Assembly: GCF_018687535.1 (NCBI RefSeq)
Contig: NZ_CP061295.1
Span: 1,736,001 to 1,800,000, forward strand
Length of the DNA stretch: 64,000 bases
DNA from: Polynucleobacter sp. MWH-S4W17
GTDB lineage: Bacteria; Pseudomonadota; Gammaproteobacteria; Burkholderiales; Burkholderiaceae
Reading direction: 5' to 3'
Shown here: in pieces, positions 693-38,698 of the stretch
How the letters are laid out: the number at the start of each line of letters is the position of its first letter
Position numbering within the stretch: position 1 is the first letter of the stretch
Translations under genes and position numbers: made by a program
The notes under the pieces: model-generated
Database searches by the model: none
Seen by the model: only the letters and a program-made list of their open reading frames with translations
Told to the model about the DNA's origin: nothing

Positions 693-3600
693 ATGGAGCT
701 CATGCTGCAAAACATCATCCCGCCTCGCCTCAAGAGCGTGCTTGCTAAACGTCCTCAAGGTTCGAACGGGGCTTGGCGTAAGCGTGCCCTCATCTTAACG
801 GGCGTTGTTTTAGCTCTTTGTGTACTGGTGCATGTGGGCGTGCGGTTTGTTCTGTGGCCGCAAATTGAGAAATCTAAAGCCTCGGTTGAGAGGCTCATTA
901 GCGCTCGCATTGGTGCAGATGTATCTATGGACTCTCTACAAGTTTCATGGACGGGCATGAGACCTAATTTTGAAATTGAAGGTTTGCGCTTCAACGCGCC
1001 CGATAAAGCGAAACCGCTCTTATTCATTCAGAAAATTGATGGGCAACTCAGTTGGGCAACTTTTTATCACCTAGCCCCATTCTTTCATGAGCTCAATATC
1101 GAGGGTGCTGAAATTTATGGGCAACGTAATGGCAAAGGCGTCATTACAGTTGCCGGCATCCCCATAGACGGAAAATCCAATGATTACTCCGCTGAGAATT
1201 GGCTCTTTGCTCAAAATGAGATTCGTGTCAGCGATGTCAAATTATTTTGGGATGATCAACTCAAAAAGAAAGCCATTACTTCAATAGATATTCAAAACCT
1301 TTCTCTTAGCAACGGCATTCGTAGCCATCAAGGCTCGCTGAGCGTCATTACCCCCTGGACCAAAGGACCAGTCTCGCTTGATATTGATCTTGTGCACCAT
1401 ATCGGTGGCCAAGCGGGCAATTGGCGCGATTGGATCGGGACTATCTCTTGGAATTTAAATGAACTCCAGCTCACTCAAATAGCAAATGAATTTGCCCTCC
1501 CTCTAAATACGCTTGAGGGAGTGGTGAACTCCAATGGAAAATTAAAAATTGACAACGGCAAACCTGATGGTGGAGAAATTTATCTTGCCGCCGATCGTTT
1601 AACTATTCAACTATCTAAAGGTGAAGATGCCATTGCTCTTGGAAGGCTAGAAACCAACCTGGTTCAAGAAACTGATAATGGCTTGATATCCGTTACTACC
1701 AAGACATTTTCCTGGCGAGATATTGAGAGTCCAGCATCTACCCCCCTCGAGAATTTAAGCCCAATGACTTTCCGCTGGAGACCACCAGCGGGAGACGGGG
1801 AAATTAAAGAATTTGGTTTTTCATCGCCAAAGATTTCGGTTGAGGATGTTGCCTTATTTGCCCTCAACCTGCCTTTATCTAAAAAAGTTCATCAGTGGAT
1901 TAAAGCCTCACAAGCTGATGGTGAGTTACAAGATCTCGATATCAATTGGTCTGAAAGTAAATCACCCTTATCTGCCCTCAATATTCCTGGCGGATGGTTT
2001 AAGTCGAACAAAGTAGACTTTACTGTGAGTGGAAAACTGATCGACCTCAGCTTTGTTGGCATCAATAAAGCGATGCCTTCAGTATCCAAACTGTCTGGCT
2101 TCCTTTCTGCCGACCAAAACAAGGGCAGCCTCTCGATTAAATCAAGCGATCTAGAGCTTGAGGTTAACGATCTATTGGTTGATCCAAAAATCAAGCTTGA
2201 TCAAGCCAATGGTCAAATTTCTTGGGCAAAACAAAAAGGGAATTGGGTCATTAATGCAAAGCAGTTAGCACTTAGTAATTCTGAGATTTCAACCACGCTC
2301 AATCTCAATTACATCATTGGTGAAGGTAAAAATCCTGACTTTATGAACCTGGACATAAATTTTGCTCAGGCTGATCTCAAAACCGCCTATCGTTATTTGC
2401 CTGTTGGCATGGGTAGCGATGCCAAATCCTATCTAAGCAAAGCCTTTGACGCAGGCATCATCAAAAATGGTAGCTTGCATATCAAAGGTGATCCCAATGA
2501 AGTACCCTTCCCTAAAGTAGGCTCAGGAGAATTCACACTCAAGCTACCGATTAATGGCGCCACTTTCAGCCCAGTGCCAAGCTCATCAATCGCACAAGGT
2601 GTTTGGCCCCCATTTAATAGGGTAAACGGCTTGATCAATATGCAGAATGCTAACTTCACGGTAGATATTGATCAAGCAAGCTACAAACAAGTTGCACTGA
2701 GTAAATTTCACGCAGAAATTCCTAGTGTGAGCGCAAAGCTATTACTTCTGACGGTGAATGGTGAGGCTGAAGGTGATGCCCCACAACTACTCGAATATCT
2801 ATTTGCCTCACCTGTTGGTAAAAAGCAAATTGCACTTGAGCGCAATCTAAAGGTTACAGGACCAACCAAGCTCAGCTTGGCCCTTAGCGTTCCCCTATCC
2901 GGTAACGGGGACACCAAAACTGACATTCAACTCAATTTTCCTGGCAACAGGGTCCAGTGGGACGACTTGCCGCCTCTGGATAACCTCAAAGGAAAGATTC
3001 GTATAACTGAGATCAATCCTGAATTCGAAGATATCACCGCTAATTTCCTTGGTGGCGCTATTAAGATTTCAAGTAAAACGCCAAATCAAGGGGGCCCGAG
3101 CTACAACATCTCAGGCGATATTAGCGCTAGCTTTATTAAAAACTACTTTGCAAAAGATTCATCGGTTCAGGTACTTCCGATTTTGCAAGCAATAAGCGGC
3201 GTTGCGAGATATGAGGGCGCCATTCATTTCAATAAAGGCAATAGCGAAACCAATCTCAAGATCGATATGCGTGATTGGGCTAGTTCAGCACCAGCCCCCG
3301 CGAAAAAGCAGATGGGGACACCCATGTCAGGCCAATTAACCCTGAAATCCTTTGCGAAATCACCCTCCACATCCAGTCGATTTACATGGGATGGAAAAAT
3401 TGGTGACACCTACTTTATTCAAGGTGAGCTTGGCAGTGATGACGCTCTTCGTCATGCGGTAGGAATCGGCACTGGCGCAGCACTCCCGAACCAAGGCTTT
3501 CAGCTTAATCTTGCCACTTCAGAGCTGAATCTCGATGTATGGCAAGATTTTTTAGAAAGCCAAAAGAAGAAAGGTTCTTCTAAAGCGGAAGAAAATAATC

Positions 3601-4853
3601 CAAGCAATATTCAAATTGCTGCCCAAGTAAAAAAAGTCATTTTGTTTGAGCGCAATTGGCAGGATATGAATTTTTCAGCAAGCAATAAAAATGCCGCTTG
3701 GCAAATGCGCATTAATTCACCCTCCATCGCCGGTCAACTGCAATATACAGAACCCAATAAGTCACAACTAAGCGGTTTGATTAGTGGGCGCTTAGCGCGA
3801 CTCAAGTTTCCCGAGAAAGTCAGCACTCCAATTGAGGTCAAAAAGCCAGCCTCAAAAAATCTTCCTGCCAAAACTGCGATTAATCCTGACTCCATTCCTA
3901 GTATTGATTTAGCTATTGATGACTTCAGCTGGGGTAAGGCTCAGCTTGGTCAGATGAAAATTAAAACCAGGACAAATAACAACGTCCTCAATGTGGATTC
4001 CATCCAATTTAATAATCCCCAAGGCAGCTCTGCTTTAACTGGGCGCTGGGTTGGCGCCACCCAGAATCAAGCTGAACACACAACGGTGAATGTTGATTTA
4101 GACATTAAGGATGCTGGTCAAATTATTGGGCATTGGACCAGCCAAAAATCAGTGGAAGGCGGCCAAGGCAAATTGACCAGTAACGTGGAGTGGGATGGCA
4201 CTCCTTTCGTACCTCAATTCGATACCCTAGCCGGTAAGGTAACCTTGAATCTTGAAAAAGGTCGATTGTTAGAGGTGAATACCAGCGGCGCCAAGCTGCT
4301 TGACGTACTCAGCCTACAAAGTTTATTTAGATTTGCTACTCTGGACCTCCAGGGAAGCTTGGGCAATATTGTGACCAAGGGAACGCCATTTAATTCCATT
4401 GATGCTTCTTTTGATATTAGCTCCGGAGTTGCTCAAACGAAGCAATTCACAATGGGTTTAGACCAAGCACGGGTTGCCATGAATGGGCAAATCAATATCC
4501 CCAAACAAACGCAAGATTTACGTGTCACCATATTTCCAACAATTGATGCAACAGCCGGCTCATTGGCTGCCTTCGCCATTAATCCTATCGTAGGTCTGGG
4601 CGCATTGGTTGGGCAGTATTTAATTACCAGTCAAATCAATCGTAATCTCCAATCAGACTATCTGGTCCAAGGCTCTTGGGATGATCCAGAAGTGATCCCC
4701 CTTGACCAAAAGGGTCAGCCAATTGACTCGAAAACTTTAGATACTATTCGCAGTAAAGAGTTGTTGAAAGAGCAAAGCAAGCCGAATAATAGTAACTCTG
4801 GGCCACAAAGCACTCCGAGTAATTTAGGTAGCCCCAATAAAATTGCTAACTAA
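693..4853 (+). CDS. yhdP: YhdP family AsmA-like envelope protein
   Basis: A 1386-residue protein with one N-terminal membrane segment (about residues 31-54) and a very long, probably periplasmic, beta-rich remainder that ends in a Ser/Asn/Pro-rich low-complexity tail. This is the layout of the YhdP/TamB/AsmA-like bridge proteins, which in E. coli help move phospholipids from the inner to the outer membrane. The C-terminal AsmA-like region (about 1180-1340) contains the family-typical pattern of a long amphipathic segment followed by NPIVGLGALVGQYL. It is slightly longer than E. coli YhdP (about 1270 residues). ATG 693 has a good AAGGA box; an ATG three codons later is possible. It starts a close-packed run with the nitrilase, tldD and aroG. 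Function is transferred from the family, not read from a catalytic motif. Confidence 0.88.
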   Translation: MELMLQNIIPPRLKSVLAKRPQGSNGAWRKRALILTGVVLALCVLVHVGVRFVLWPQIEKSKASVERLISARIGADVSMDSLQVSWTGMRPNFEIEGLRFNAPDKAKPLLFIQKIDGQLSWATFYHLAPFFHELNIEGAEIYGQRNGKGVITVAGIPIDGKSNDYSAENWLFAQNEIRVSDVKLFWDDQLKKKAITSIDIQNLSLSNGIRSHQGSLSVITPWTKGPVSLDIDLVHHIGGQAGNWRDWIGTISWNLNELQLTQIANEFALPLNTLEGVVNSNGKLKIDNGKPDGGEIYLAADRLTIQLSKGEDAIALGRLETNLVQETDNGLISVTTKTFSWRDIESPASTPLENLSPMTFRWRPPAGDGEIKEFGFSSPKISVEDVALFALNLPLSKKVHQWIKASQADGELQDLDINWSESKSPLSALNIPGGWFKSNKVDFTVSGKLIDLSFVGINKAMPSVSKLSGFLSADQNKGSLSIKSSDLELEVNDLLVDPKIKLDQANGQISWAKQKGNWVINAKQLALSNSEISTTLNLNYIIGEGKNPDFMNLDINFAQADLKTAYRYLPVGMGSDAKSYLSKAFDAGIIKNGSLHIKGDPNEVPFPKVGSGEFTLKLPINGATFSPVPSSSIAQGVWPPFNRVNGLINMQNANFTVDIDQASYKQVALSKFHAEIPSVSAKLLLLTVNGEAEGDAPQLLEYLFASPVGKKQIALERNLKVTGPTKLSLALSVPLSGNGDTKTDIQLNFPGNRVQWDDLPPLDNLKGKIRITEINPEFEDITANFLGGAIKISSKTPNQGGPSYNISGDISASFIKNYFAKDSSVQVLPILQAISGVARYEGAIHFNKGNSETNLKIDMRDWASSAPAPAKKQMGTPMSGQLTLKSFAKSPSTSSRFTWDGKIGDTYFIQGELGSDDALRHAVGIGTGAALPNQGFQLNLATSELNLDVWQDFLESQKKKGSSKAEENNPSNIQIAAQVKKVILFERNWQDMNFSASNKNAAWQMRINSPSIAGQLQYTEPNKSQLSGLISGRLARLKFPEKVSTPIEVKKPASKNLPAKTAINPDSIPSIDLAIDDFSWGKAQLGQMKIKTRTNNNVLNVDSIQFNNPQGSSALTGRWVGATQNQAEHTTVNVDLDIKDAGQIIGHWTSQKSVEGGQGKLTSNVEWDGTPFVPQFDTLAGKVTLNLEKGRLLEVNTSGAKLLDVLSLQSLFRFATLDLQGSLGNIVTKGTPFNSIDASFDISSGVAQTKQFTMGLDQARVAMNGQINIPKQTQDLRVTIFPTIDATAGSLAAFAINPIVGLGALVGQYLITSQINRNLQSDYLVQGSWDDPEVIPLDQKGQPIDSKTLDTIRSKELLKEQSKPNNSNSGPQSTPSNLGSPNKIAN

Positions 4854-4859
4854 ATCATC

Positions 4860-5693
4860 ATGAACTCATCAGTAAATAGCGCAGACCTCAAGATTGCCTC
4901 CATTCAGATGGTCTCCACACCTGATTTGCGGGAGAACTTATCTACAGCAAGCAGACTCGTCGTCGCAGCTGCAGCCGAAGGCGCACAACTTGCTGTCTTA
5001 CCAGAGTATTTTTGCTTAATGGGCCTCAAGGACACCGATAAAGTTCGGGCCCGCGAAAGCATTGGTAGTGGGCCCATCCAAGAGCAACTTTCGGATATTG
5101 CACAACAAAATAATATTTACCTAGTGGCAGGTACTATTCCACTGGAAGCAAAAGATTCTAATAAAGTACTTAATACAAGCCTTGTTTTTAATCCTGCTGG
5201 CGAGCAAATTTCTCGTTACGACAAAATTCATTTATTTGGTTTTCAAACAGCAACTGAGCGTTATCAAGAATCCGAAACAATTGAGGCTGGCAATGCGCCG
5301 GGCCTCTTAAAAATTTCAATTGGCGGAAATGATTGGACCTTTGGTTTGAGTATTTGCTATGACCTGCGCTTCCCAGAGCTCTATCGCGCCCTTGGACAGG
5401 TAGATTGCCATATCATCCCAGCCGCCTTTACCTATACAACTGGCAAGGATCATTGGGAAATTCTCTTACGCGCTCGCGCTATCGAAAACCAATGTTACGT
5501 GTTAGCCTCCGCCCAAGGCGGCATTCATCAAAATCAACGACGTACTTGGGGCAATAGTATGTTGATTGATCCTTGGGGCAGCATCTTGGCCAACCTCCCC
5601 GAGGGTGAAGGCTTTATTTCTGGGGTTTTGTGCAAAGATAAATTAAACGAGGTACGCTCTAAGTTACCCGCACTTGCGCATCGCAAGCTTTAA
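4860..5693 (+). CDS. Carbon-nitrogen hydrolase (nitrilase superfamily, Nit-type)
   Basis: A 277-residue single-domain nitrilase-superfamily enzyme. The catalytic triad is visible: Glu49 in LPEYF, Lys122 in RYDKIHLF and Cys166 in [13 protein letters not shown]. Length and motif spacing match the NitFhit/Nit2-like branch, whose best-known members are omega-amidase and deaminated-glutathione amidase; the exact substrate cannot be told from sequence. It begins 6 bp after yhdP and is followed closely by tldD, so it is probably cotranscribed with both. Seen: triad and length. Known: hydrolysis of a C-N bond through a cysteine thioester. Inferred: metabolite-repair role. Confidence 0.9.
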
Positions 5694-5713
5694 AGAAAGA
5701 TTTGCTGAATCAC

Positions 5714-7204
5714 ATGAATGCACCAGAAGCACTATTCCCTGCCAATTGGACGAAAGCCAAAAAGCAAGCAGACCTTATCAAGTTAGCCAAATCTATTTTG
5801 CTCGAACCAACCGGCTTATCCGAGCAAGACTTACATGGTACCTTTGGCAATCTATTTGCCCATCGCCTTGATGATGCAGATCTCTACTTCCAACATACTC
5901 GGAGTGAGAGCTGGAGTCTTGAAGAAGGCATTGTTAAGTCCGGCAGCTTTAATATTGATCAAGGCGTTGGTGTGCGCGCTATTTATGGCGATAAGACAGC
6001 TTTCGCTTATTCAGATGAAATTAATTTAGAAGCTTTAAATAAAGCAGCTAAAGCTACTCGAGTGATTGGGCCCGAGGGTGGTAAGCAGGCGGTTGCCAGC
6101 AAACTTTTTAATCCCATATCCAATAAGCTCTACTCGGATGTCAATCCTTTAGATTCTCTTCAGCCCAAAGAAAAAATTGCCCTTCTGGAAAGCATAGAAC
6201 GTCGCGCTAAAGCACGTGACCCACGGATCATCCAGGTTATGGCCAGTCTGGCCGGGGAGTTTGATGTTGTATTGGTTGTGCGTGCGGATGGCTTGTTGGC
6301 GGCAGATGTACGCCCGTTAGTGCGCGTTTCGGTACACGTTATTGCAGAACAGAATGGTCGGCGTGAATCAGGCTCCTCTGGCGGCGGCGCACGTCATGAC
6401 TACCTCTACTTCAATACTGATTTGATTAATCGCTATGTTGATGAAGCTGTTGACGGAGCCCTATTAAATCTCGAATCGCGCCCAGCACCTGCTGGCCCAA
6501 TGACAGTGGTCATGGGGCCGGGCTGGCCAGGCGTTCTATTACATGAGGCAGTTGGTCATGGTCTCGAGGGCGACTTTAATCGCAAAGGATCCTCTGCTTT
6601 TGCTGGTCGTATTGGACAGCGCGTTGCAGCTAAAGGTGTCACCGTTGTGGATGATGGAACCTTATCTGGACGTAGAGGCTCTTTAAATATTGATGACGAA
6701 GGAACTCCCACTCAATGCACCACCTTAATTGAAGACGGCATTTTGAAGGGCTATATTCAGGATAGCCTGAATGCCCGACTCATGAATATGCCCCTCACTG
6801 GCAATGGTCGGCGTGAAAGTTTTGCCTCACTACCAATGCCGCGCATGACAAATACCTACATGTTGGCCGGTAAAGATGATCCTCAAGAAATTGTCGCCAG
6901 CATCAAGCGCGGTTTATACGCAGTGAACTTTGGCGGCGGTCAGGTTGACATCACTAGCGGCAAATTTGTATTTTCTGCTTCAGAGGCCTATTGGGTTGAG
7001 AACGGCAAAATTCAATATCCCGTCAAAGGCGCGACCATTATTGGTAGCGGGCCAGAATCCCTAAAACAGGTTTCTATGATCGGAAATGACCTAAAACTAG
7101 ACGGTGGGGTTGGGGTTTGTGGCAAGGAAGGGCAAAGTGTTCCAGTCGGGGTTGGGCAGCCTACCCTGAGGATTGATAGCCTGACTGTGGGTGGGACTGC
7201 CTAA
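5714..7204 (+). CDS. tldD: TldD metalloprotease subunit
   Basis: A protein of 496 residues belonging to the TldD/PmbA (U62) family. The zinc-site motif HEAVGH followed by Glu lies near residues 277-283, as expected for the catalytic subunit TldD, which pairs with TldE/PmbA to degrade unfolded peptides and to process antitoxins and modified peptides in some bacteria. The partner gene is not in this window. I chose ATG 5714; a TTG at 5702, better spaced from an AAAGAAAGA stretch, would add four residues, so the start is not settled. The gene follows the nitrilase by about 20 bp and precedes aroG by about 30 bp. Seen: HExxxH. Known: heterodimeric protease. Confidence 0.93.
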
Positions 7205-7234
7205 TATTGGCTAATTACGGCTTAAAATAGCCAG

Positions 7235-8359
7235 ATGAGCCAACAAAATACGAATCCCGCTAATTGGTACTCTGCTGTCGACAAGACCTCAGATACTGAC
7301 GATCAACGCATTGACAACATTTCTGTTCTGCCTCCGCCAGAGCATTTAATTCGCTTCTTTCCGATTTCTGGAACGCCTACTGAAGCGTTGATCAGCAACA
7401 CTCGCAAAAAGATCCGCGACATTATTCATGGCAAGAATGACCGCTTACTCGTGATCATCGGACCATGCTCCATTCATGACCCAAAAGCAGCGTTGGAATA
7501 TTGCCAACGCCTCTTAGTTGAGCGCGAGCGTTTTGCTGGTGAATTAGAAATTGTGATGCGCGTATATTTTGAAAAGCCACGCACTACTGTTGGCTGGAAG
7601 GGTTTGATTAACGACCCGTATCTGGATGAAAGCTATCGCATCGAAGAAGGTCTACGCCTTGCGCGCCAAGTACTGATGGAAATCAATCGCCTTGGCATGC
7701 CAGCTGGTAGCGAATTCTTGGATGTGATTTCTCCGCAATATATTGCGGATCTGATTTCATGGGGTGCTATTGGTGCGCGTACTACTGAAAGCCAAGTTCA
7801 CCGCGAACTTGCATCTGGCTTGTCTGCACCTATCGGATTTAAGAACGGTACTGATGGCAACATCAAAATTGCTACCGATGCGATTCAAGCAGCAGGTCGC
7901 CCACATCATTTCTTATCCGTTCATAAAAATGGTCAAGTATCGGTTGTGGAAACTAAAGGCAATAAAGATTGCCATGTGATTTTGCGTGGCGGCAAAGAGC
8001 CAAATTACGAGGCTCAATTTGTGCAAGCAGCCTGCTCTGAGCTTGAAGCGGCCAAGCTTCCAGCCAGTTTGATGGTTGATTTATCCCATGCCAATTCAAG
8101 CAAAAAGCATGAGCGTCAGATTGTGGTTGCCGACGATGTAGCTCAGCAAATTGAGTCTGGCTCACACCAGATTTTTGGCGTGATGGTTGAGAGTCATTTA
8201 AATGATGGCGCCCAGAAATTTACACCCGGAAAAGATGACCCAAGTAAATTGGAATACGGCAAGAGTATTACTGATGCCTGCATCAACTGGGATGACTCTG
8301 TGAAGGTACTAGAGCGTCTAGCTACAGCCGTTAAGAAACGCAGAAGCAAGAAGAAGTAA
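7235..8359 (+). CDS. aroG: 3-deoxy-7-phosphoheptulonate (DAHP) synthase, class I
   Basis: A 374-residue class I (AroFGH) DAHP synthase, condensing phosphoenolpyruvate and erythrose 4-phosphate in the first step of the shikimate pathway. Visible family segments include IIGPCSIHD, RVYFEKPRTTVGWKGLINDP, GARTTESQVHRE, GFKNGTDG and VDLSHANS, which together hold the metal and substrate ligands. The N-terminal extension before the barrel is the part that carries feedback control in E. coli AroG; which amino acid inhibits this copy cannot be decided by eye. It ends in a Lys/Arg-rich tail and is followed by a strong terminator. No clear Shine-Dalgarno sequence precedes the ATG. Confidence 0.95.
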   Translation: MSQQNTNPANWYSAVDKTSDTDDQRIDNISVLPPPEHLIRFFPISGTPTEALISNTRKKIRDIIHGKNDRLLVIIGPCSIHDPKAALEYCQRLLVERERFAGELEIVMRVYFEKPRTTVGWKGLINDPYLDESYRIEEGLRLARQVLMEINRLGMPAGSEFLDVISPQYIADLISWGAIGARTTESQVHRELASGLSAPIGFKNGTDGNIKIATDAIQAAGRPHHFLSVHKNGQVSVVETKGNKDCHVILRGGKEPNYEAQFVQAACSELEAAKLPASLMVDLSHANSSKKHERQIVVADDVAQQIESGSHQIFGVMVESHLNDGAQKFTPGKDDPSKLEYGKSITDACINWDDSVKVLERLATAVKKRRSKKK

Positions 8360-12935: not shown

Positions 12936-13657
12936 ACTCCATTGTTGTCAATTTGATGCAAGTCAGAACAAGAATTGAGCTTGCTGCCCTAGCAGCAAAG
13001 CGTGAGCCCGAAGAAATCGAGCTTCTGGCAGTGAGCAAGACTTTTCCTGCTGCTGCCGTTGAAGAAGCTATGCATGCTGGACAATCAGCTTTTGGTGAAA
13101 ACTATGTGCAAGAGGCCGTTGAAAAAATTGAGAAGTTAGCCAAACTACGCCCTTGGTTGACCTGGCATTTTATTGGCCCTTTACAGAGCAATAAAACCAG
13201 AGAAGTAGCGCAACACTTCGATTGGGTTCACAGTGTGGACCGCCTCAAAATTGCAGAACGCCTATCCGCTCAACGCGGCGAGTTTCCAGATTTACCGCCA
13301 TTGATGGTTTGCGTACAAATCAATGTTAGCGAGGAGGAGAGCAAAAGCGGCATTTCTCTGGTTGAAGTTGAAGAACTCTGTAACGCTATTACCTCTTTAC
13401 CAAACTTAGTTCTGCGGGGCTTGATGGCAATTCCCGCACCTAATCCAGACCCTGTCTTGCAACGCCAGGCTTTTGCAGCCGTACAAGATTGTTTCAAGCG
13501 CATACAAGCCAGCCATTTCACTGAACTTGGTTACCAGTTCTTTGACACCCTTTCGATGGGCATGTCCGATGATTTAGAGGCCGCCATCGCTGAAGGCAGC
13601 ACTTTAGTTCGCGTTGGTACAGCCATTTTCGGGAAGCGCGATAAGATTAGCAAATGA
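12932..13657 (+). CDS. YggS family pyridoxal phosphate homeostasis protein
   Basis: A 241-residue member of the YggS/PROSC (PLPBP) family, a TIM-barrel protein that binds pyridoxal 5'-phosphate and keeps the cell's PLP and amino-acid pools balanced. The PLP lysine lies in AVSKTFP (about residue 37). Other conserved blocks are FGENYVQEA, WHFIGPLQSNK and the phosphate-binding SMGMSDDLEAAI...VRVGTAIFG. It overlaps glcF by 4 bp and proC by 4 bp. The yggS-proC pairing is common in bacteria; the coupling to glcF is a local feature. Function is from the family and no enzymatic reaction is known. Confidence 0.93.
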   Translation: MNSIVVNLMQVRTRIELAALAAKREPEEIELLAVSKTFPAAAVEEAMHAGQSAFGENYVQEAVEKIEKLAKLRPWLTWHFIGPLQSNKTREVAQHFDWVHSVDRLKIAERLSAQRGEFPDLPPLMVCVQINVSEEESKSGISLVEVEELCNAITSLPNLVLRGLMAIPAPNPDPVLQRQAFAAVQDCFKRIQASHFTELGYQFFDTLSMGMSDDLEAAIAEGSTLVRVGTAIFGKRDKISK

Positions 13658-14523
13658 GCACAAACAAAATCGCACAAAATAATAGCAACGCGCACATCAC
13701 CTTTGTTGGCGGTGGCAATATGGGGCGTGCCCTTATCAGCGGCCTTCTTGCTAGTGGATTCGAACCTAATCAAATCTCTGTTGTAGAAGCAAATGCTGCA
13801 ACTGCCCTAAAGTTACATGAAGATTTTGGTGTTCAGGGCATTGGCGCTCTGGAGCACATCGCTTTTGATTTCTCTAGAAATAATGTGCTTGTCATGGCGA
13901 TCAAACCACAAGACTTTAATGTCGTTGCCAAAGGTTTAGCGTCTAAGTTAAAGCATGCGAGCGAGCCCGGTCCACTCATTCTGAGTATCGCTGCGGGTAT
14001 TCGCCTAAAAGATATGAGTCGCTGGCTTGATCACACACGCTGTGTACGCGCTATGCCAAATACTCCAGCCTTAATTGGTAAAGGGATTACCGGTCTTTTT
14101 GCAGATACCGCTGTAGATCAATCTGATCGTGCCTTAGCTGAAACCATTTGTAATGCGGTAGGTCAAACCGTTTGGGTAAAAGAAGAAAAATTGATGGATG
14201 CAGTAACTGCTGTTTCTGGTAGTGGTCCAGCCTATGTCTTTGCATTTTTAGAGGCAATGCAATCTGCTGGAGAGAAGCTCGGTCTTGATTCAGAGACAGC
14301 GCGCAAGCTGGCTTATGCCACTCTTGAGGGCGCTACACAGCTTGCCCATGACTCTGATGAACACGCTGGCGTTCTCCGCGCGAGAGTCACTTCAAAGGGT
14401 GGAACCACTGCTGCTGCTCTAGATGTCATGAAACAACAAGGTTGGCATGAAATTTTAGAAAAAGCGATTGATGCAGCCAGTCAGCGCGGTAAAACAATGG
14501 GCGATGAACTCGGCCAGAGTTAG
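13654..14523 (+). CDS. proC: Pyrroline-5-carboxylate reductase
   Basis: A 289-residue ProC, which reduces 1-pyrroline-5-carboxylate to proline with NAD(P)H in the last step of proline synthesis. The Rossmann start is [16 protein letters not shown] (about residues 16-31). The C-terminal signature includes [19 protein letters not shown] and [16 protein letters not shown], which hold substrate-binding residues. The ATG overlaps the yggS stop. Its own stop overlaps the stop of convergent ubiA by a few bases, leaving no room for a terminator between them. Length is slightly above the usual 265-280, with the extra residues at the N-terminus. Confidence 0.96.
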
Positions 14524-15383
14524 TTAATACCTATACCCAGCACAATTCCCAGAAATAAAAATCCGCCTAACCAGTTGTTATGGCGGAATGCTTTAAAACA
14601 ATTTTCTCTATTGCGTGTTGAAACCAACTTTAAGTGATATATCGCACAAGCCAATGCTGCGAACCAACCCACTAAAAAATAATTGCTTAAGTTAGCCAAT
14701 TGCGCCACCCATAACTGACTCAGAAAAAGCATCCCATAGCTTATTGCTATAGCGACGACATCGTACTGACCAAAAGTAATGGCCGATGTTCTCAACCCTA
14801 GGCGCAGATCATCATCGCGATCAACCATGGCATAGGCTGTGTCATAAGCGATCGCCCAAAAAATGTTTCCAATAAATAAGAACCAGGCCTCTAGGGGGAT
14901 AGAATCCAAAATAGCCGCATACGCCATCGGAATGCCAAAGCCAAAGGCAATGCCTAAGACAGCTTGGGGCATGGCAAAAAAGCGTTTGGTAAAGGGATAG
15001 AGGAAGGCTACTAGCAAAGCAAGCACGGATAGTTGTTTTGTAAATACATTCAGGGGCTGAATGAATAAAAACGCAATCAAGGCCAATACTCCAGCCACAG
15101 CTATGGCCTCTTTGCCCGAGATTTTTCCACTTGTGACTGGGCGATCTTGGGTACGGTTAACATGACGATCAAAATCACGATCAGCATAGTCGTTGATTGC
15201 ACAACCCGCACTACGCATTAAAAATGTGCCGACAGTAAAGATCAACAAAATAGATAAATCAGGCACACCACTGCTTGCCAACCAAAGAGCCCAGAGCGTA
15301 GGCCATAACAGTAATAGCGTACCAATCGGCTTATCTAGCCTGATTAGATGGCCATAAGAAATAAAACGATCTTTTACATTCAT
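14520..15383 (-). CDS. ubiA: 4-hydroxybenzoate polyprenyltransferase
   Basis: A 287-residue, highly hydrophobic protein with about eight or nine membrane segments. Both Asp-rich prenyl-diphosphate motifs of UbiA are present: [19 protein letters not shown] (about residues 65-83) and [15 protein letters not shown] (about 185-200). It attaches the polyprenyl tail to 4-hydroxybenzoate in ubiquinone synthesis at the inner membrane. It lies downstream of recG on the same strand with a 10-bp gap, so the two may be cotranscribed, and it runs convergent into proC. UbiC is not nearby. Identification is firm from motifs and length. Confidence 0.95.
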
Positions 15384-15393
15384 AAGGTAATTA

Positions 15394-17481
15394 TCAAGCC
15401 TTTAGAAATTCCGCTCGAGATCCGAGCCAGCGCTCTAAATGACGCTCCACCAGATCTGCATGCTCAGCGAGCAAGCGCTCGGCCGCCTGTTGGGCTAACT
15501 CAATTAACCAGGCATCGCGTTGCAAATCGACAAAGCGCAACATAGCATCTCCTGATTGCTTCGCGCCTAGCAATTCACCCGGACCACGCAGTGATAAATC
15601 TCGCTCAGCAATCACAAAACCATCTGAGGTCTCACGTAAAGTTTGTAGACGTTCCTTGGCAGCCATTGAAAGCGGCTCGGCGTACATCAAAATACAGACC
15701 GAATCCGCAGAACCCCTGCCCACGCGCCCGCGCAATTGATGGATCTGGGCATAACCAAAGCGCTCAGCATGCTCAATCACCATTAACGCCGCATTAGGTA
15801 CGTCTACCCCAACCTCAATTACCGTAGTCGCAACTAAAAGCTGAACCTCATTTGCCTTAAAGGCGGCCATGACTGCTGCTTTTTCTTCTGCTTTTAATCT
15901 GCCATGCACTAAGCCAACCTTAAAGTCAGGTAAAGCCTGAGTCAGTTGCTCGAAGCTCTCAACTGCTGTTTGCAATTGCAGTACTTCAGATTCTTCAATC
16001 AGAGGGCAAACCCAGTACGCTTGCAAGTCCTTGGATAACCAACTTTGCAAACCACCGATCACCTCATCACGGCGGCCGGCTTTAACTACCTTGGTAGCAA
16101 TCGGTTTTCGACCAGGAGGCAATTCATCGATGACAGAGACATCTAAGTCAGCATAGTAGGTCATCGCTAAAGTGCGTGGTATTGGTGTCGCAGACATCAT
16201 TAATTGATGGCAGTAAAACAATTCCGACCCAACGCGCTGCTGAATCTCTAAACGCTGCCTCACTCCGAAGCGATGTTGCTCATCAATCACTGCGAGGCCA
16301 AGTTTGGCAAAGCTCACGTTTTCTTGAATAAGAGCATGCGTACCAATAATGAGTTGGGCTTGCCCATTTTCGATTACCTCTTGTGCCAATCTTTTTTCTT
16401 TGGCTTTCAGACTCCCTGACAGCCAAGCGATTCGTACCCCTAAAGGCTCAAACCATTCCTTCATTTTGAGATAGTGTTGCTCAGCCAATATTTCCGTAGG
16501 CGCCATGATGGCAGCTTGATAGCCATGATCCATTGCCCGCGCTGCAGCCAAGGCCGCTACTACAGTCTTGCCGCTACCTACGTCCCCTTGTAAAAGGCGA
16601 TTCATCGGGAATGATTGAGAAAGGTCATGACTCATTTCAGACCAAACACGATCTTGAGCATTAGTTAATTTAAAAGGCAATACTTTCAGCAAGCCCGCTT
16701 CAAAGCTTTGCCGCTCTTTCTTGCCCTTACTCTCATCTTTATTTTTTACAAAACTAGGTGCATGCCGCTCCCGACGAATCGCATGCGCACGCTTTAACGA
16801 AATTTGCTGAGCAAGGAGTTCCTCAAACTGCACTCGACGCCAAGCAGGATGAGTACGCTCTAGCAATGCCTGAGTATTGGCATCGGCAGGCGGTTGATGT
16901 AAATAGATAATCGCCTCTTGCAAGTTTGGCCAATCATGACTAGGCAGTAGCTCTGCCATCAGCTCTTTGGGCAAGAACTCAGCCAGACTATCTTGCAGGC
17001 TTGGGTCACGTAAGGCTTGTGACACTGCTTTACGAATAATGGTTTGCGAGACTCCAACACTTGCTGGATAAACTGGAGTCAAACTAGCAGGTAAAGGTGT
17101 ATCTGGAGCGACAGCTCTCACCGTAGGGTGCACCATCTCTGGACCCTGAAAACCTTCACGCACTTCACCGCGGACTCGAATATTGACCCCGACAGCCATT
17201 TGTTTTTGCTGGCTAGGGTAGAAGTTCAGGAAGCGTAGATTTAAGGTTTCAGTCTCATCCTCGATGGTCACCACCATCTGCCTTCTGGGCCTAAATAAGA
17301 CCTGATTGCGAATAACTACACCCTGGGTCTGGGCTGAGTTAAATCTACCCTGATGTATGGCCTCCTCGATCGTGAGCAGCTCGGTCTCATCCTCATAACG
17401 GGATGGCAAGTGCAAAGCAAGGGCCATAGGGCTGTCTAAACCCATCTTTTGGAGTGTACTTGGCGCTTGTTTAGTAGTCAT
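15394..17481 (-). CDS. recG: ATP-dependent DNA helicase RecG
   Basis: A 695-residue RecG, the branched-DNA helicase that regresses stalled replication forks and processes Holliday junctions. An N-terminal wedge/OB region (about residues 50-150) is followed by the SF2 motor: motif [12 protein letters not shown] (about 300), motif [12 protein letters not shown] in place of DEAD, motif [16 protein letters not shown], and motif [11 protein letters not shown]. The C-terminus contains the RecG block [20 protein letters not shown]. The length is typical. It is divergent from queA with a 30-bp gap between start codons, so the two promoters must overlap or lie inside the opposite coding region. Confidence 0.96.
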
Positions 17482-17511
17482 CGTTAAAATCTAATACCTG
17501 ATGGTAATGCT

Positions 17512-19712
<2,201 letters not shown>

Positions 19713-26511: not shown

Positions 26512-26545
26512 AAAAAATGCCAATCAAAACTGATTGGCATTTTTG
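26512..26545. terminator. Bidirectional intrinsic terminator between the GST gene and mnmA
   Basis: A 10-bp perfect core stem (26517-26526 with 26531-26540), loop AAAC, flanked by an A-run on the left and T-run on the right. It lies between two convergent genes and should stop transcription from both. Confidence 0.9.
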
Positions 26546-34192: not shown

Positions 34193-34483
34193 TTACTTCT
34201 GTACAACAGCCATGATGTCGTCTTCACGCATCACGATGAGTTCTTCGCTGTCAACTTTTACTGTTTGACCTGCATATTTGCCAAACAACACGCGATCGCC
34301 TACTTTGACGTCAGGTGCGTTTAATTTGCCGCTGTCATCGCGCTTGCCCGGTCCTACTGCCAAAACTTCACCTTGATCAGGCTTTTCTGCAGCAGCGTCA
34401 GGAATAATGATTCCGGAAGCAGTTTTTGATTCTTGATCTAAACGCTTGATGATTACGCGATCATGTAAGGGACGCAAATTCAT
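34193..34483 (-). CDS. groES: Co-chaperonin GroES (10 kDa)
   Basis: A 96-residue GroES, the lid of the GroEL cage. It starts [18 protein letters not shown], has the mobile loop [22 protein letters not shown] (residues about 18-40) that contacts GroEL, and a dome segment near residue 50. Length is standard. The mRNA leader is long, roughly 125-130 nt from the proposed start site to the ATG, and includes the CIRCE element at its beginning and a small hairpin at 34568-34587. Identification is firm. Confidence 0.99.
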
Positions 34484-34564: not shown

Positions 34565-34578
34565 AGGCTGATTTATCT
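34565..34578 (-). repeat. 14-nt leader element, copy in the groES leader
   Basis: On the groES transcript this reads AGATAAATCAGCCT, identical to 34724-34737 in the leader of the divergent operon and in the same orientation relative to transcription. It overlaps the 3' arm of a possible hairpin (34568-34587, 7-bp stem with one G-U pair). Confidence 0.75.
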
Positions 34579-34592
34579 AAAAACCAGCTGTT

Positions 34593-34619
34593 TTAGCACT
34601 CGCGTGTAGGGAGTGCTGA
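34593..34619. promoter_or_regulatory. CIRCE operator (HrcA-binding inverted repeat)
   Basis: The sequence TTAGCACTC, nine spacer bases, GAGTGCTGA matches the CIRCE consensus TTAGCACTC-N9-GAGTGCTAA with one mismatch in the last positions. It lies at the beginning of the groES transcript and touches the -10 box, the usual place for HrcA repression of groESL. Confidence 0.95.
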
Positions 34620-34648
34620 TTATATAGGTCTCATTCCTGGGATTTCAA
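34619..34648 (-). promoter_or_regulatory. groES-groEL promoter, sigma32-like and sigma70-like boxes
   Basis: On the minus strand CTTGAAA (34643-34649) is followed after 14 bp by CCTATATA, close to the sigma32 pattern CTTGAAA-N(11-16)-CCCCATnT. The same DNA also gives TTGAAA-N18-TATAAT (34643-34648 and 34619-34624), a good sigma70 promoter. The -10 box abuts CIRCE. Heat-shock activation and HrcA repression are both likely. Confidence 0.8.
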
Positions 34649-34665
34649 GGGCGGATCACCATAAA

Positions 34666-34695
34666 TTCTTTAAGGATTTAGCCTATTTTTATAAT
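34666..34695 (+). promoter_or_regulatory. Candidate promoter of the degenerate-EAL / two-component operon
   Basis: A perfect TATAAT at 34690-34695 with a weak TTCTTT 18 bp upstream (34666-34671). Transcription would begin near 34702, exactly at the left arm of a stem-loop (34702-34737). The -35 match is poor, so an activator may be required. Confidence 0.45.
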
Positions 34696-34701
34696 GGGGA
34701 C

Positions 34702-34737
34702 AGGCTGGTAGGCCGATTCCTACAGATAAATCAGCCT
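34702..34737 (+). promoter_or_regulatory. 5'-leader stem-loop of the degenerate-EAL operon
   Basis: Outer arms AGGCTG/CAGCCT and inner arms GTAGG/CCTAC, separated by an 8-nt bulge (AGATAAAT), make an imperfect stem-loop at the predicted 5' end of the mRNA. The bulge and right arm together form the 14-nt element also present in the groES leader. Confidence 0.5.
34724..34737 (+). repeat. 14-nt leader element, copy in the degenerate-EAL operon leader
   Basis: AGATAAATCAGCCT, the perfect inverted copy of 34565-34578. The two copies flank the divergent promoters, about 145 bp apart, each downstream of its own promoter and in the same orientation relative to its transcript. Confidence 0.75.
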
Positions 34738-34799
34738 AAAGCCCTTACCGCTCCAATCCGTCCTGCCTAGACTGGATAGCCACCGACTGGAGAATGCTG

Positions 34800-35642
34800 A
34801 TGAGCCCGAAATCCCGGCTGTACACGCTTGTAAAGGCATGGAAGAACAAACCCTTCCAAGAAGTACGAGACGCCTGTGGCGACCCCTGGCTTGGACTTAG
34901 TAACCAAGCCCTTGAAGAACACCAATCCTGGTCTAAACGACAAGCGATTAGTTATGAACCCATTTTTAACTGCAAGGGAACCAAACTGACAGGATCTTTA
35001 TTTAGACCATTACTGACTGCCTCTGACATGCAATTGCTGCGCCTTTTTATGGAAGGCTTAGACACCATCGCATATTGGTATCGCAGTGGTCGCTTTATTC
35101 CTGGCATTTTGCCAATACCAACACATGCCATAGCCTCAAGCCGCTACGTGGATGCAATGAGTGAACTCATTCTGAACTCACGCCTACCAGTGGGCTTGGT
35201 AAGTATTGGCATTCAAACAATTCCTGAGCCTGACATCGCCGATGCTTGTAAAGAAGGGTTGCTGCGTTTACGACGGCTTGGCATCTTGCTACATTTTCTG
35301 AAATTCACCGGAAGCATTGAAGAGTTGCAGTGGATCACGGAAATGCAATTAGAGGGCGTTCATATCGATATGAGTCAAATACGTGAACGCGAGCTGGCAA
35401 GCAATGTGCTTTCTCAACTCAGACAATCGCCCTACTCACCAACACAATTTTATGCCGGCAATATTGGGTTAGTAAAGGATTTAGAAAACGCTTCCACTCT
35501 GATTGCCGACCATTCCTATGGTGGTCTCATGATGTCGCCTGTAAGTCGCCATCAGATGCTGCAGATTAACGATAGTCGTATCGCTAAAGCCATTTTTTCG
35601 CTGCACCCTCATCCACACCCAAACCAAAACGGAGACAAGTAA
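34800..35642 (+). CDS. Degenerate EAL-domain regulatory protein
   Basis: A protein of 280 residues whose overall pattern follows the EAL fold: YEPIFNCKGTKLTGSLFRPLL near the start corresponds to the canonical QPIVDL..G..GFEALVRW, and later LQWITEMQLEGVHIDMSQI corresponds to LKxLPVDGIKIDxSFV. The catalytic residues are gone: no E-A-L, no DDFG(T/S)G and no ELTE-type metal ligand, so phosphodiesterase activity is not expected. It may still bind c-di-GMP or act through protein contacts. I prefer ATG 34800, six bases after GGAGA, over ATG 34794. The stop overlaps the response-regulator start (TAATG). By position it recalls Bordetella BvgR, an EAL-family protein linked to bvgAS. Fold assignment is by eye and tentative. 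Confidence 0.65.
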   Translation: MSPKSRLYTLVKAWKNKPFQEVRDACGDPWLGLSNQALEEHQSWSKRQAISYEPIFNCKGTKLTGSLFRPLLTASDMQLLRLFMEGLDTIAYWYRSGRFIPGILPIPTHAIASSRYVDAMSELILNSRLPVGLVSIGIQTIPEPDIADACKEGLLRLRRLGILLHFLKFTGSIEELQWITEMQLEGVHIDMSQIRERELASNVLSQLRQSPYSPTQFYAGNIGLVKDLENASTLIADHSYGGLMMSPVSRHQMLQINDSRIAKAIFSLHPHPHPNQNGDK

Positions 35643-36265
35643 TGAGAAAACGCGTGATGTTGGTAGATGACCATCCGGCAATGCTGATGGCTCTTAAAAG
35701 TATGTTGCAGGACCAGTTGCTTTTTGAGATCGCAGGGCAAGCCCAGAATGGTGAGGAGTGCCTTAGGTCCATGAAGGAGGTGAACCCCAATATGGTGATC
35801 CTGGATCTCGATATGCCCAAGACGGATGGCTTTGATGTCATACGCCGTATCGGATTAATGTATCCCGAGGTTCGAATGCTTGTTCTTTCCAGCATGGACG
35901 AGGCTGTTTATGGCGGGAGAGTACGCTCATTAGGCGGGCATGGTTTTGTAAACAAAACTGCAGGTGCAGATGTCATCCTAGCTGCTTGCGTTGCCATATC
36001 CCAAGGCTATAACTTTTTCACTCATGGCAAAAATGGCAATAGCTCATTAAGTGACAACGATAAGCTTGCGTTAATTTCTGATCGTGAGTTACAGGTTATG
36101 AAATATCTGGGCAAAGGTAACTCCAATCAGCAGATCTCTGAAATGCTGCATATCAGCAATAAGACAGTAGCTACTTATAAGACCAGAGTCTTTGACAAAC
36201 TAGGCATTAACAATATTGCAGACTTGATTTTGTTCTGTCGCATGAACAATATTATCGAAAGCTAA
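35642..36265 (+). CDS. NarL/FixJ-type (LuxR HTH) response regulator
   Basis: A 207-residue two-domain regulator. The receiver (about residues 3-120) has the acidic pair in MLVDDHP, the phospho-acceptor Asp55 in VILDLDMPKTDG, the Ser/Thr position in LVLSSMD and the conserved Lys in GFVNKTAG. The C-terminal LuxR-type HTH (about 142-200) reads ISDRELQVMKYLGKGNSNQQISEMLHISNKTVATYKTRVFDKLGI. It is BvgA/EvgA-like in size and domain order. Translation is coupled to the degenerate-EAL gene upstream, and the sensor kinase begins right after its stop, so the kinase's Hpt is its probable phosphodonor. Target genes are unknown. Confidence 0.92.
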   Translation: MRKRVMLVDDHPAMLMALKSMLQDQLLFEIAGQAQNGEECLRSMKEVNPNMVILDLDMPKTDGFDVIRRIGLMYPEVRMLVLSSMDEAVYGGRVRSLGGHGFVNKTAGADVILAACVAISQGYNFFTHGKNGNSSLSDNDKLALISDRELQVMKYLGKGNSNQQISEMLHISNKTVATYKTRVFDKLGINNIADLILFCRMNNIIES

Positions 36266-36271
36266 TTGAGC

Positions 36272-38698
36272 ATGCGTCGGTCCATCACCCGTATTGCCCT
36301 TTTTATCCTATTAAATGGGATATTAAACAATACCTATGCGAACTTACTGAATTCAGCAGAGCAAAGATGGATCGATGCTCATCCCATAGTACGTTTTAGT
36401 ATTCATGAAAAATATGCGCCTTACTTAGATGTGAATGGAAAGGGTGAGTCTGGAGTTTTTCATAGCCTTCTAAAAAAGCTCAGCGAATTTACCCAACAGG
36501 AGTTTTTACCGACGTGGCGAAAGAGTGATCAGGAGGGGCTTGAGCAACTAGCCAATGGAGAGGTAGATTTCATCATTGATCCGCCCGCTATAGATAATGA
36601 GTATCTGATGTTTGGGTCCTTATCAGAAGCAATCTTTTGGGGGCATGACGCTATTCTGACTAAACGGTCAAAAAACGATACGCCTATTGAGCCAATTAAT
36701 ATTGCCTACTTTGACCGTGGCTTTGAAAACCCGCCAATACCCAATCACCCCCAAGCTAGCGTATCCGGTCATGCAGAAAAATTAGTATTTGATCTTCTCA
36801 AAAATGATATTGAGGCGCTTGTCATACCGCTTCGTCTTGCGCAACAACTGATTCAGAAATTTAACGTAGATAAGTTACAAATTGATGGGCTTTACAGAAG
36901 AGAGCCCTTCAAATACCGTTGGCTTATCTCCAATCAAGATGAAGCTTTGCATGGAGTGCTTGAGCATTTTCTCAATAATCTAGATCCAATCGCATCACGA
37001 GGTCTTTTTAACATCAACGCATCTACTTTTGAAAGAGTCCACCCATCTGCACCCAACCATTTACCTTGGCTCTCCACTTTGGCAATCCTAGTGATAGGCT
37101 CTACCTTGCTTTGGCGCATGCATCAGAAACAATCACTTCAAAAGGAAGAGGCTCAAGAACTCATTTCATCGAAAGAGCAGGCAGAAAATGCAAACGCCGC
37201 AAAGTCTGCCTTCCTTGCCACCATGAGCCATGAAATTCGCACGCCCATGAATGCCATTTTAGGGGTGCAGGAGTTATTGCTTAGCAGCCCCCTACCTACA
37301 AATGAAAAAACTTTACTCAAGAGCGCGCACTCTTCAGCAGAATCTCTTCTAGGAATCCTAAACCAGGTTTTGGATCTATCAAAGATAGAGGCAGGCAAGC
37401 TTACGCTCAATATTGAGCCCTGCAATCTCAATGCTTTGATTGATGACATCGGTTCGGCATTCTCGACCGTGGCCCATAGACAGAGTCTCAAGCTACATAC
37501 CTCAAAAGATCCACGCATTGCAGAAGTCTTGTTGTTAGATTCTTTACGTCTACGCCAAATACTGCAGAACCTGATTAGTAATGCCATTAAGTTCACCGAT
37601 CATGGCGAAATCTACTTCTCTATCAGCGTGCTTGCAGATGATCATGCGGGGCAACTGATTGAATTCAGAGTCATTGATACCGGTGTTGGCATGTGTACAG
37701 AAGAAATTACCCTAGCACTGCAAGCTTTTGAGCAAATTCCGGGTAATAACGAACAAGTGAATGGCACTGGGCTTGGCCTAACCATTACCAATCACTTAGT
37801 TACCTCCATGAACAGCCAACTCTACTTTGAGAGCGCGCCTGGCTTTGGTAGCAATATTCATTTTTGCGTTGCGTTCCCACGTACCAGCATTGCTGCAACC
37901 AGAGCCTCTAGACCTGAACATTGCAATATATCCAGAAAGCTTGTCTCCAAGTGTGCTCAAAATAATGAGCGTCCATTACAAGCATTAGTTGTTGAAGATC
38001 ATGCCGCAAGCCGCCAAATTATCTTTCTTCAACTTCAGGCGCTGGGTATTGAAGTATCAGTTTGCGATAACGCTACCACAGCTCTGGATCTCATCAGTCA
38101 AAAGTATTTTGATCTTCTGCTAACCGATCAGTCTATTCCAGGCATGCAGGGTTCAGAGCTTGCCAAACACATACGCAATACAGGCAATCAAGATCTCATC
38201 ATCATCGGCATTACGGCAGATATCTATGCACTAGATTCGCGTCATCAATTCTTGGAGGCTGGCATGAATGGTGTTCTGATCAAACCATTAAGCCTCATGA
38301 CTTTAGAGAATGAGCTTACTCGCTATTTCCAAGTCGAAGAATTAACTGGACCTCCAACTCAAACCAGAGGTCTGGAGGAGTATTCATTTGACGCCTTCGG
38401 AAATCTCCTCAGAAATAGCCCAGAGTACATTCTGGTCATTCTGGAAGAAATTAAAAAGGTGCATGATGAGACCCTTCTTTCACTGAGAAATGAAGCCGTA
38501 GATGAAGACGCCTTCAGAAGTATGATTCATAAAGTCAAAGGAGGGGCACAGCTCCTCAATGCCGAATACTTTACTAGAGCATGCGAAGCCCTAGAGCAAG
38601 AGAAGAATTTAGATACTCGAATTACCACCTTCATTCAATTACTGGAGGACCAAAATCTAATTATTACTAGGTATCAATCTCAATATGCAAAGCTTTAA
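36272..38698 (+). CDS. Hybrid sensor histidine kinase with periplasmic solute-binding-like domain (BvgS/EvgS-like)
   Basis: An 808-residue phosphorelay kinase. Order: signal/TM segment (about 6-22), one periplasmic Venus-flytrap-like domain (about 25-260, beginning with the BvgS/EvgS-like pattern AEQRWIDAHPIVRFSIHEKYAPY), TM helix (about 266-284), short coiled coil, HisKA with His320 in MSHEIRTPMNAILG, HATPase with NAIKFTD, DTGVGM and GTGLGLTI, receiver with Asp619 in LLLTDQSIPGM, and a C-terminal Hpt with His753 in IHKVKGGAQLL. BvgS and EvgS have two flytrap domains and BvgS a PAS domain; here only one flytrap and no PAS are seen. ATG 36272 is chosen over a TTG six bases earlier that directly follows the regulator stop. 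The ligand is unknown. Confidence 0.9.
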   Translation: MRRSITRIALFILLNGILNNTYANLLNSAEQRWIDAHPIVRFSIHEKYAPYLDVNGKGESGVFHSLLKKLSEFTQQEFLPTWRKSDQEGLEQLANGEVDFIIDPPAIDNEYLMFGSLSEAIFWGHDAILTKRSKNDTPIEPINIAYFDRGFENPPIPNHPQASVSGHAEKLVFDLLKNDIEALVIPLRLAQQLIQKFNVDKLQIDGLYRREPFKYRWLISNQDEALHGVLEHFLNNLDPIASRGLFNINASTFERVHPSAPNHLPWLSTLAILVIGSTLLWRMHQKQSLQKEEAQELISSKEQAENANAAKSAFLATMSHEIRTPMNAILGVQELLLSSPLPTNEKTLLKSAHSSAESLLGILNQVLDLSKIEAGKLTLNIEPCNLNALIDDIGSAFSTVAHRQSLKLHTSKDPRIAEVLLLDSLRLRQILQNLISNAIKFTDHGEIYFSISVLADDHAGQLIEFRVIDTGVGMCTEEITLALQAFEQIPGNNEQVNGTGLGLTITNHLVTSMNSQLYFESAPGFGSNIHFCVAFPRTSIAATRASRPEHCNISRKLVSKCAQNNERPLQALVVEDHAASRQIIFLQLQALGIEVSVCDNATTALDLISQKYFDLLLTDQSIPGMQGSELAKHIRNTGNQDLIIIGITADIYALDSRHQFLEAGMNGVLIKPLSLMTLENELTRYFQVEELTGPPTQTRGLEEYSFDAFGNLLRNSPEYILVILEEIKKVHDETLLSLRNEAVDEDAFRSMIHKVKGGAQLLNAEYFTRACEALEQEKNLDTRITTFIQLLEDQNLIITRYQSQYAKL

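Follow-up and report, generated by a model that had tools for sequence, protein, structure and literature searches.

A conserved element, TAGG-N4-TTCCTACA-NANAAATCA, lies at positions 34709-34733 of the window (the whole 64,000-nucleotide stretch of Polynucleobacter sp. MWH-S4W17 DNA that was analysed), in front of an operon whose genes encode a degenerate EAL-domain protein, a response regulator and a hybrid histidine kinase. Judged from sequence comparison, it is most likely an autoregulatory operator, through which the regulator governs expression of the operon that encodes it. The element is absent from the description in the initial annotation, which dealt with a 14-mer, AGATAAATCAGCCT, repeated exactly at 34565-34578 (minus strand) and 34724-34737 (plus strand). 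The repeat is real and occupies the positions given there, and it probably pairs a conserved operator region with a chance match on the groES side. The probability of this reading of the control region, i.e. a conserved operator of the EAL-regulator-kinase operon, self-regulation by the operon's own regulator and a coincidental copy at groES, is put at roughly 0.77.

The prediction supplies an operator that can be tested, together with part of the regulon, for a sensor system that most of the sampled species in a widespread freshwater genus have retained. It also suggests that DNA recognition of the BvgA type, known from work on a pathogen, operates in free-living relatives with small genomes as well. 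In addition, the case illustrates how an exact repeat, however striking, may consist of one functional site and one chance match.

The operon and its predicted operator

Gene 1 of the operon (34794-35642, plus strand; the start may be 34800) encodes the degenerate EAL-domain protein. The Pfam EAL model matched 13 of 31 homologues of this protein, the source-genome protein not being among them, and EAL-domain structures were on top in a Foldseek search with a low-confidence model (mean pLDDT 59.2). A family-level search outside the genus gave no convincing match to gene 1, the two weak ones having E values near 1e-3. Gene 2 (35642-36265, plus strand) encodes the response regulator, the presumed binder of the box, with REC and LuxR-type HTH domains (Pfam). 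Its best PDB match is EvgA (5f64; 115.8 bits, compared with 48.4 bits for RcsB), and its recognition helix, SNKTVATYKTR, is nearly identical to that of EvgA, SNKTVSTYKSR. By its two domains and by its closeness to EvgA, the protein is of the EvgA/BvgA type; its best NCBIfam model is likewise EvgA, but with 137.8 bits it falls below the 251-bit cut-off and is not classed as an EvgA equivalog. Gene 3 (36266-38698, plus strand) encodes the hybrid kinase, in which HisKA, HATPase_c and REC score above the Pfam cut-offs and a weak Hpt (E 7e-4) below; its N-terminal 311 residues gave no credible Pfam match when Venus-flytrap domains were sought. The system thus resembles EvgA/EvgS of E. coli in the best structural and NCBIfam matches and the recognition helix of its regulator, and is unlike it in that the regulator stays well below the EvgA cut-off and gene 1 is EAL-like.

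Gene 1 was detected in 137 of the 151 genomes of the genus. The upstream regions compared comprise a main set of 122 (30 loci from the gene-1 search and 92 further ones fetched) and a diverged group of 12, with three fragmentary matches (G028, G057 and G125) excluded. When the box is defined as TAGG-N4-TTCCTACA with at most two mismatches, it is present in 104 of the 122 main-set regions. In these 104 promoters the TAGG and TTCCTAC columns are 97-100% identical, and A34726, A34728-A34730 and T34731 are invariant. In 104 of 104, TAGACT or TAAACT begins 59 bp downstream of the box start, and in the complete regions the gene-1 protein match begins at a variable 85-92 bp from the box. The candidate primary operator (34709-34722, plus strand) has an extension on its 3' side, at 34723-34737, a stretch that includes the plus copy of the 14-mer. 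That copy is exact in 21 of the 104 promoters and has one to five mismatches in the rest. The earlier suggestion that the repeat could bind the adjacent response regulator is therefore best restated: TAGG-N4-TTCCTACA together with the AAAT within the 14-mer is conserved and predicted to be bound, and the 14-mer as such is not.

The promoter belonging to this arrangement consists of the -35 TTACCG at 34745-34750, of which TTAC is 94-100% conserved, and, after a 17-bp spacer, the -10 TAGACT at 34768-34773 (both plus strand). A possible second -10, TATAAT/TATACT, is located upstream at 34690-34695 (plus strand); it is 76-87% identical in five of six columns in the main clade and is not evident in the outer groups. 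If this upstream -10 is used, the box would be transcribed, and a role as a repressor site or within RNA would be conceivable.

In the proposed mechanism, the operon's own EvgA/BvgA-like regulator would, as a phosphorylated dimer, bind the inverted heptads TAGGNNN|WTTCCTA, which read TAGGCCG|ATTCCTA in the window and are centred at 34715.5. A second, weaker dimer would probably bind 22 bp downstream, at 34731-34744 (plus strand; centre 34737.5), where the BvgA geometry would place it against the poor -35, and would bring RNA polymerase to TAGACT, so that the autoregulation would be positive. The plus copy of the 14-mer would then span the 3' flank of the first site together with the left portion of the second. 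The second site ends directly before TTACCG. Because its sequence resembles the heptad poorly, we infer the second dimer, as we do the identity of the binder, activation rather than repression, and a transcription start near 34780.

BvgA belongs to the same regulator type as EvgA, and in Bordetella the EAL protein BvgR is linked to bvgAS. The order of the present operon, with an EAL-like gene, a BvgA/EvgA-like regulator and a hybrid kinase, recalls that arrangement. The primary BvgA site of Pfha is TAAGAAATTTCCTA, BvgA dimers are centred 22 bp apart with the last one abutting the -35 (PMC7250471), and the BvgA heptad is TTTCCTA (PMC4314077). The box has the TAAG/TAGG-N4-TTCCTA form with TTTCCTA-like inverted heptads, matching in form the TAAGAAA|TTTCCTA of the Bordetella operator, and the sites of G027 and G141 contain the identical BvgA Pfha 14-mer. 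The coordinates of the inferred second site also fit the BvgA array, with 22-bp spacing and a promoter-proximal dimer against a poor -35, the likeness of that site to the heptad being poor. The box differs from the BvgA operator in its left heptad, which is usually TAGG only, and in an extra conserved ACA-NA-NAAATCA; furthermore, the source genome has one predicted site. The RcsAB box of enterobacteria, with the consensus TaAGaatatTCcta in a figure legend of PMC4325325, is approached by the box of G099, which reads TAAGAATATTCCTA, but the regulator is far closer to EvgA than to RcsB by the bit scores given above. As to a published EvgA box, a search for literature on EvgA with TTCCTACA gave no match, and the available part of PMC4222967 gave no box. 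No description of this locus was recognised in the accessible portions of the Polynucleobacter literature on two-component systems or response regulators, on groES, or on Bvg and Evg names, PMC12826045 being unrelated to the locus in the part available.

Occurrence of the box across the genus

The 18 main-set regions without the box consist of 14 from the clade whose gene 1 is the most diverged in the main set (the box is found upstream of the operon in none of the 14), three cut by contig ends (G086, G101 and G111), and G035, in which an island stands between the promoter and the gene and the box remains on the groES side. In the diverged group the box is present in 12 of 12 regions with 0-3 mismatches, at 59 bp (10 regions) or 60 bp (two) before TAGACT, and the regulators of this group are 47-60% identical to that of the source genome in the six genomes measured.

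With one mismatch allowed, the 25-nt pattern matched in 123 of the 151 genomes, and a reversed control pattern gave one match overall. About 32 of the sites, by hand count, lie away from the operon. Among 20 off-operon sites examined with their flanks, the neighbours include a flavoprotein operon, an HTH_17 gene next to a gene read as 2-oxoglutarate-dehydrogenase-like, and genes for a low-molecular-weight phosphatase, a CNNM/CorC-type protein and a transglycosylase/transpeptidase. The flavoprotein operon, encoding an FAD/NAD(P)-binding protein and an MFS transporter, has a strong match in 10 of the 151 genomes, the source genome not included. Nine of the ten carry the box at a constant position, 76 bp ahead of codon 1 as extrapolated from the protein match; in the tenth it is decayed. 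The core promoter of this operon was not identified, the best -10 candidates not lying 59 bp after the box. The source genome itself contains the exact box once, and near copies are not in excess (79 with at most two mismatches, compared with 186 for the reversed control), and therefore only autoregulation is predicted in it.

Genomes that have lost the regulator also bear on its link to the box. The orthologue is missing from four genomes that are 99-100% complete (G069, G084, G132 and G135), their best-scoring matches being 29, 26, 23 and 25% identical, respectively. In G069 and G084 a relic box remains; in each, the A of TTCCTA is altered, a base that never varies among the 104 promoters. 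In the stretches examined of G132 and G135 no box was found. In G017 and G023, gene 1 is broken and the regulator intact, and the box is intact.

These distributions bear on the question of which protein binds the box. Binding by another LuxR-type regulator of the cell, rather than by the adjacent one, would be compatible with the further, weakly similar regulators encoded in the genome, and with the box-less-operon clade, several genomes of which have boxes at other genes. It is nevertheless improbable, considering that box and regulator occur at one locus in most genomes, that the four regulator-less genomes yielded only a decayed box or none, and that the heptad fits an EvgA/BvgA-type helix. 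It is similarly unlikely that the plus-strand region serves as a structured RNA leader, transcribed from the upstream TATAAT and folding into the hairpin AGGCUG-GUAGG...CCUAC-CAGCCU, even though this hairpin is predicted to be stable and conservation of the TATAAT/TATACT is good within the main clade. The inner stem is nearly invariant and never covaries; the outer stem is 64.8% paired, compared with 50.3% in the best slid control, but its 21 double-change cells are no commoner than the 8-25 of the slid controls; and a better conserved promoter lies downstream. With compensatory changes thus wanting and no match in Rfam, the RNA element that had been envisaged was rejected for the plus side. 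The operon's own regulator stays the preferred binder of the box.

At four loci (L282, L285, L286 and L293), from several genomes of a diverged clade, the box precedes a transglutaminase-type gene and a permease-like gene. In the first three of these a second TTCCTACA follows the box, which suggests arrays.

The groES leader and the repeated 14-mer

The groES gene (34193-34483, minus strand; Pfam Cpn10), detected in 141 of the 151 genomes, has a promoter at 34619-34648 (minus strand), read from the sequence as TTGAAA (34643-34648), an 18-bp spacer and TATAAT (34619-34624). Beside it at 34593-34619 (minus strand) lies the CIRCE of groESL, TTAGCACTC-N9-GAGTGCTGA, one mismatch from the consensus TTAGCACTC-N9-GAGTGCTAA, and the genome encodes HrcA with a score above the family cut-off. 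The elements of ordinary CIRCE/HrcA control of groESL are thus present, and they concern the groES side only.

The minus copy of the 14-mer was compared in 130 CIRCE-bearing groES leaders (13 of the 143 sources had no usable one), with the 60 nt after CIRCE scanned. It is exact in two of them, those of the source genome (G000) and of G035. The next best match has two mismatches (G137), two leaders have three, and the other 125 have at least four, including those of the close relatives G004, G007 and G071, whose gene 1 is 94-95% identical. The copy at groES also lacks the TAGG/TTCCTAC core. Alignment of the gap among relatives, which had been proposed as a check on both copies, accordingly separates them: the plus-strand locus is conserved and the groES-side copy is not. 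The sequences said to precede the two copies, CAGCTGGT and CAGGCTGGT, are variable across species on both sides.

The repeat is locally rare. A further check that had been proposed, a search of the 2.05-Mb complete genome, gave no third exact copy of AGATAAATCAGCCT and two copies with one mismatch. When the 310-bp intergenic region was shuffled 20,000 times with dinucleotides preserved, an inverted pair of at least 14 appeared three times, and the initial estimate that chance would seldom place such a match across a 145-bp gap is therefore fair. In shuffled 64-kb windows, however, inverted pairs within 300 bp number 0.14 on average and direct ones 0.11, and a second inverted pair occurs in the real window, so that the 14-mer pair is only mildly surprising once a search of the whole window is allowed for. 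The 14-mer common to both sides is probably due to chance.

That one cis element, either an operator or an RNA element, is shared by the two copies and co-regulates groESL and the two-component operon is accordingly very unlikely. The rarity of such a pair in the shuffled intergenic region speaks for it, as do the groES-side copy in one other species (G035) and a divergent gene order that is common in the genus. These points are outweighed by the near absence of the groES copy from other leaders (exact in 2 of 130, with one more at two mismatches, and not in the close G004, G007 and G071), by its lack of the core, and by the large inserts that part groES from the operon in G148, G035, G076 and G145. 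Nor is a link between chaperone and sensor expression borne out, with groESL having its own CIRCE and HrcA being encoded. A related possibility is that the regulator's influence extends to groESL, at a distance of about 100 bp, so that one envelope signal would govern both a c-di-GMP-type output and the chaperonin, with the groES-leader copy adding a contact in the source species and in P. parvulilacunae (G035); this, too, seems highly improbable. From the leader comparison, the groES-side copy is probably a coincidental match; it lies in the 3' arm of a hairpin that follows CIRCE and evolves fast.

A stem-loop with the 14-mer as its 3' arm can be drawn for both copies, as had been claimed, the folds having z values of -1.6 to -1.7 in short pieces and of -1.2 and +0.35 in longer ones. 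It is doubtful that both copies lie in transcribed leaders, because the best-conserved promoter of the operon leaves the plus copy upstream of transcription.

On the groES side, the segment 34561-34592 and the same place in the 130 leaders fold better than shuffles though the sequence varies. The first 32 nt after CIRCE have a mean z of -1.05 relative to shuffles (119 distinct sequences, folded singly), and the next two stretches of the leader have means of +0.07 and +0.13. Among 29 distinct sequences, a pre-selected subset, pairing in the four outer pairs is 72%, and sliding lowers it to 52% or less; no structure came out of a consensus fold of 81 distinct main-clade leaders. These results do no more than suggest a groES-leader hairpin whose structure may be conserved, perhaps serving mRNA stability.

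The second inverted 14-mer pair of the window, AAAAATGCCAATCA at 26513-26544 (starts at 26513 and 26531, 18 bp apart), is the sole other exact one within 300 bp, and is perhaps a terminator hairpin.

Insertions between groES and the operon

In several genomes the region between groES and the operon is occupied by inserted DNA. In G148 (L161, G148:C1:59428-78500), positions 13114-18516 hold a Tn7-like transposon with TnsA-like, Mu-transposase, TniB and two TniQ genes. The same left and right ends are found in G145, on two loci (L343 and L119) beside groES and the operon, hinting at a preferred target near groES. A different island, read as carrying a TnsA/TnsB/TnsC/TniQ-like set, is present in G035 (L162, G035:C1:197383-216190, positions 1636-7450); it is situated just inside the start of the EAL gene, which is thereby truncated, with both box and promoter left on the groES side. 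In G076 (L163, G076:C1:1737118-1752500), about 15 kb that reads as genes for branched-chain amino-acid transport and an aldehyde dehydrogenase separates groES from the operon. The groES-operon region looks like an insertion hotspot.
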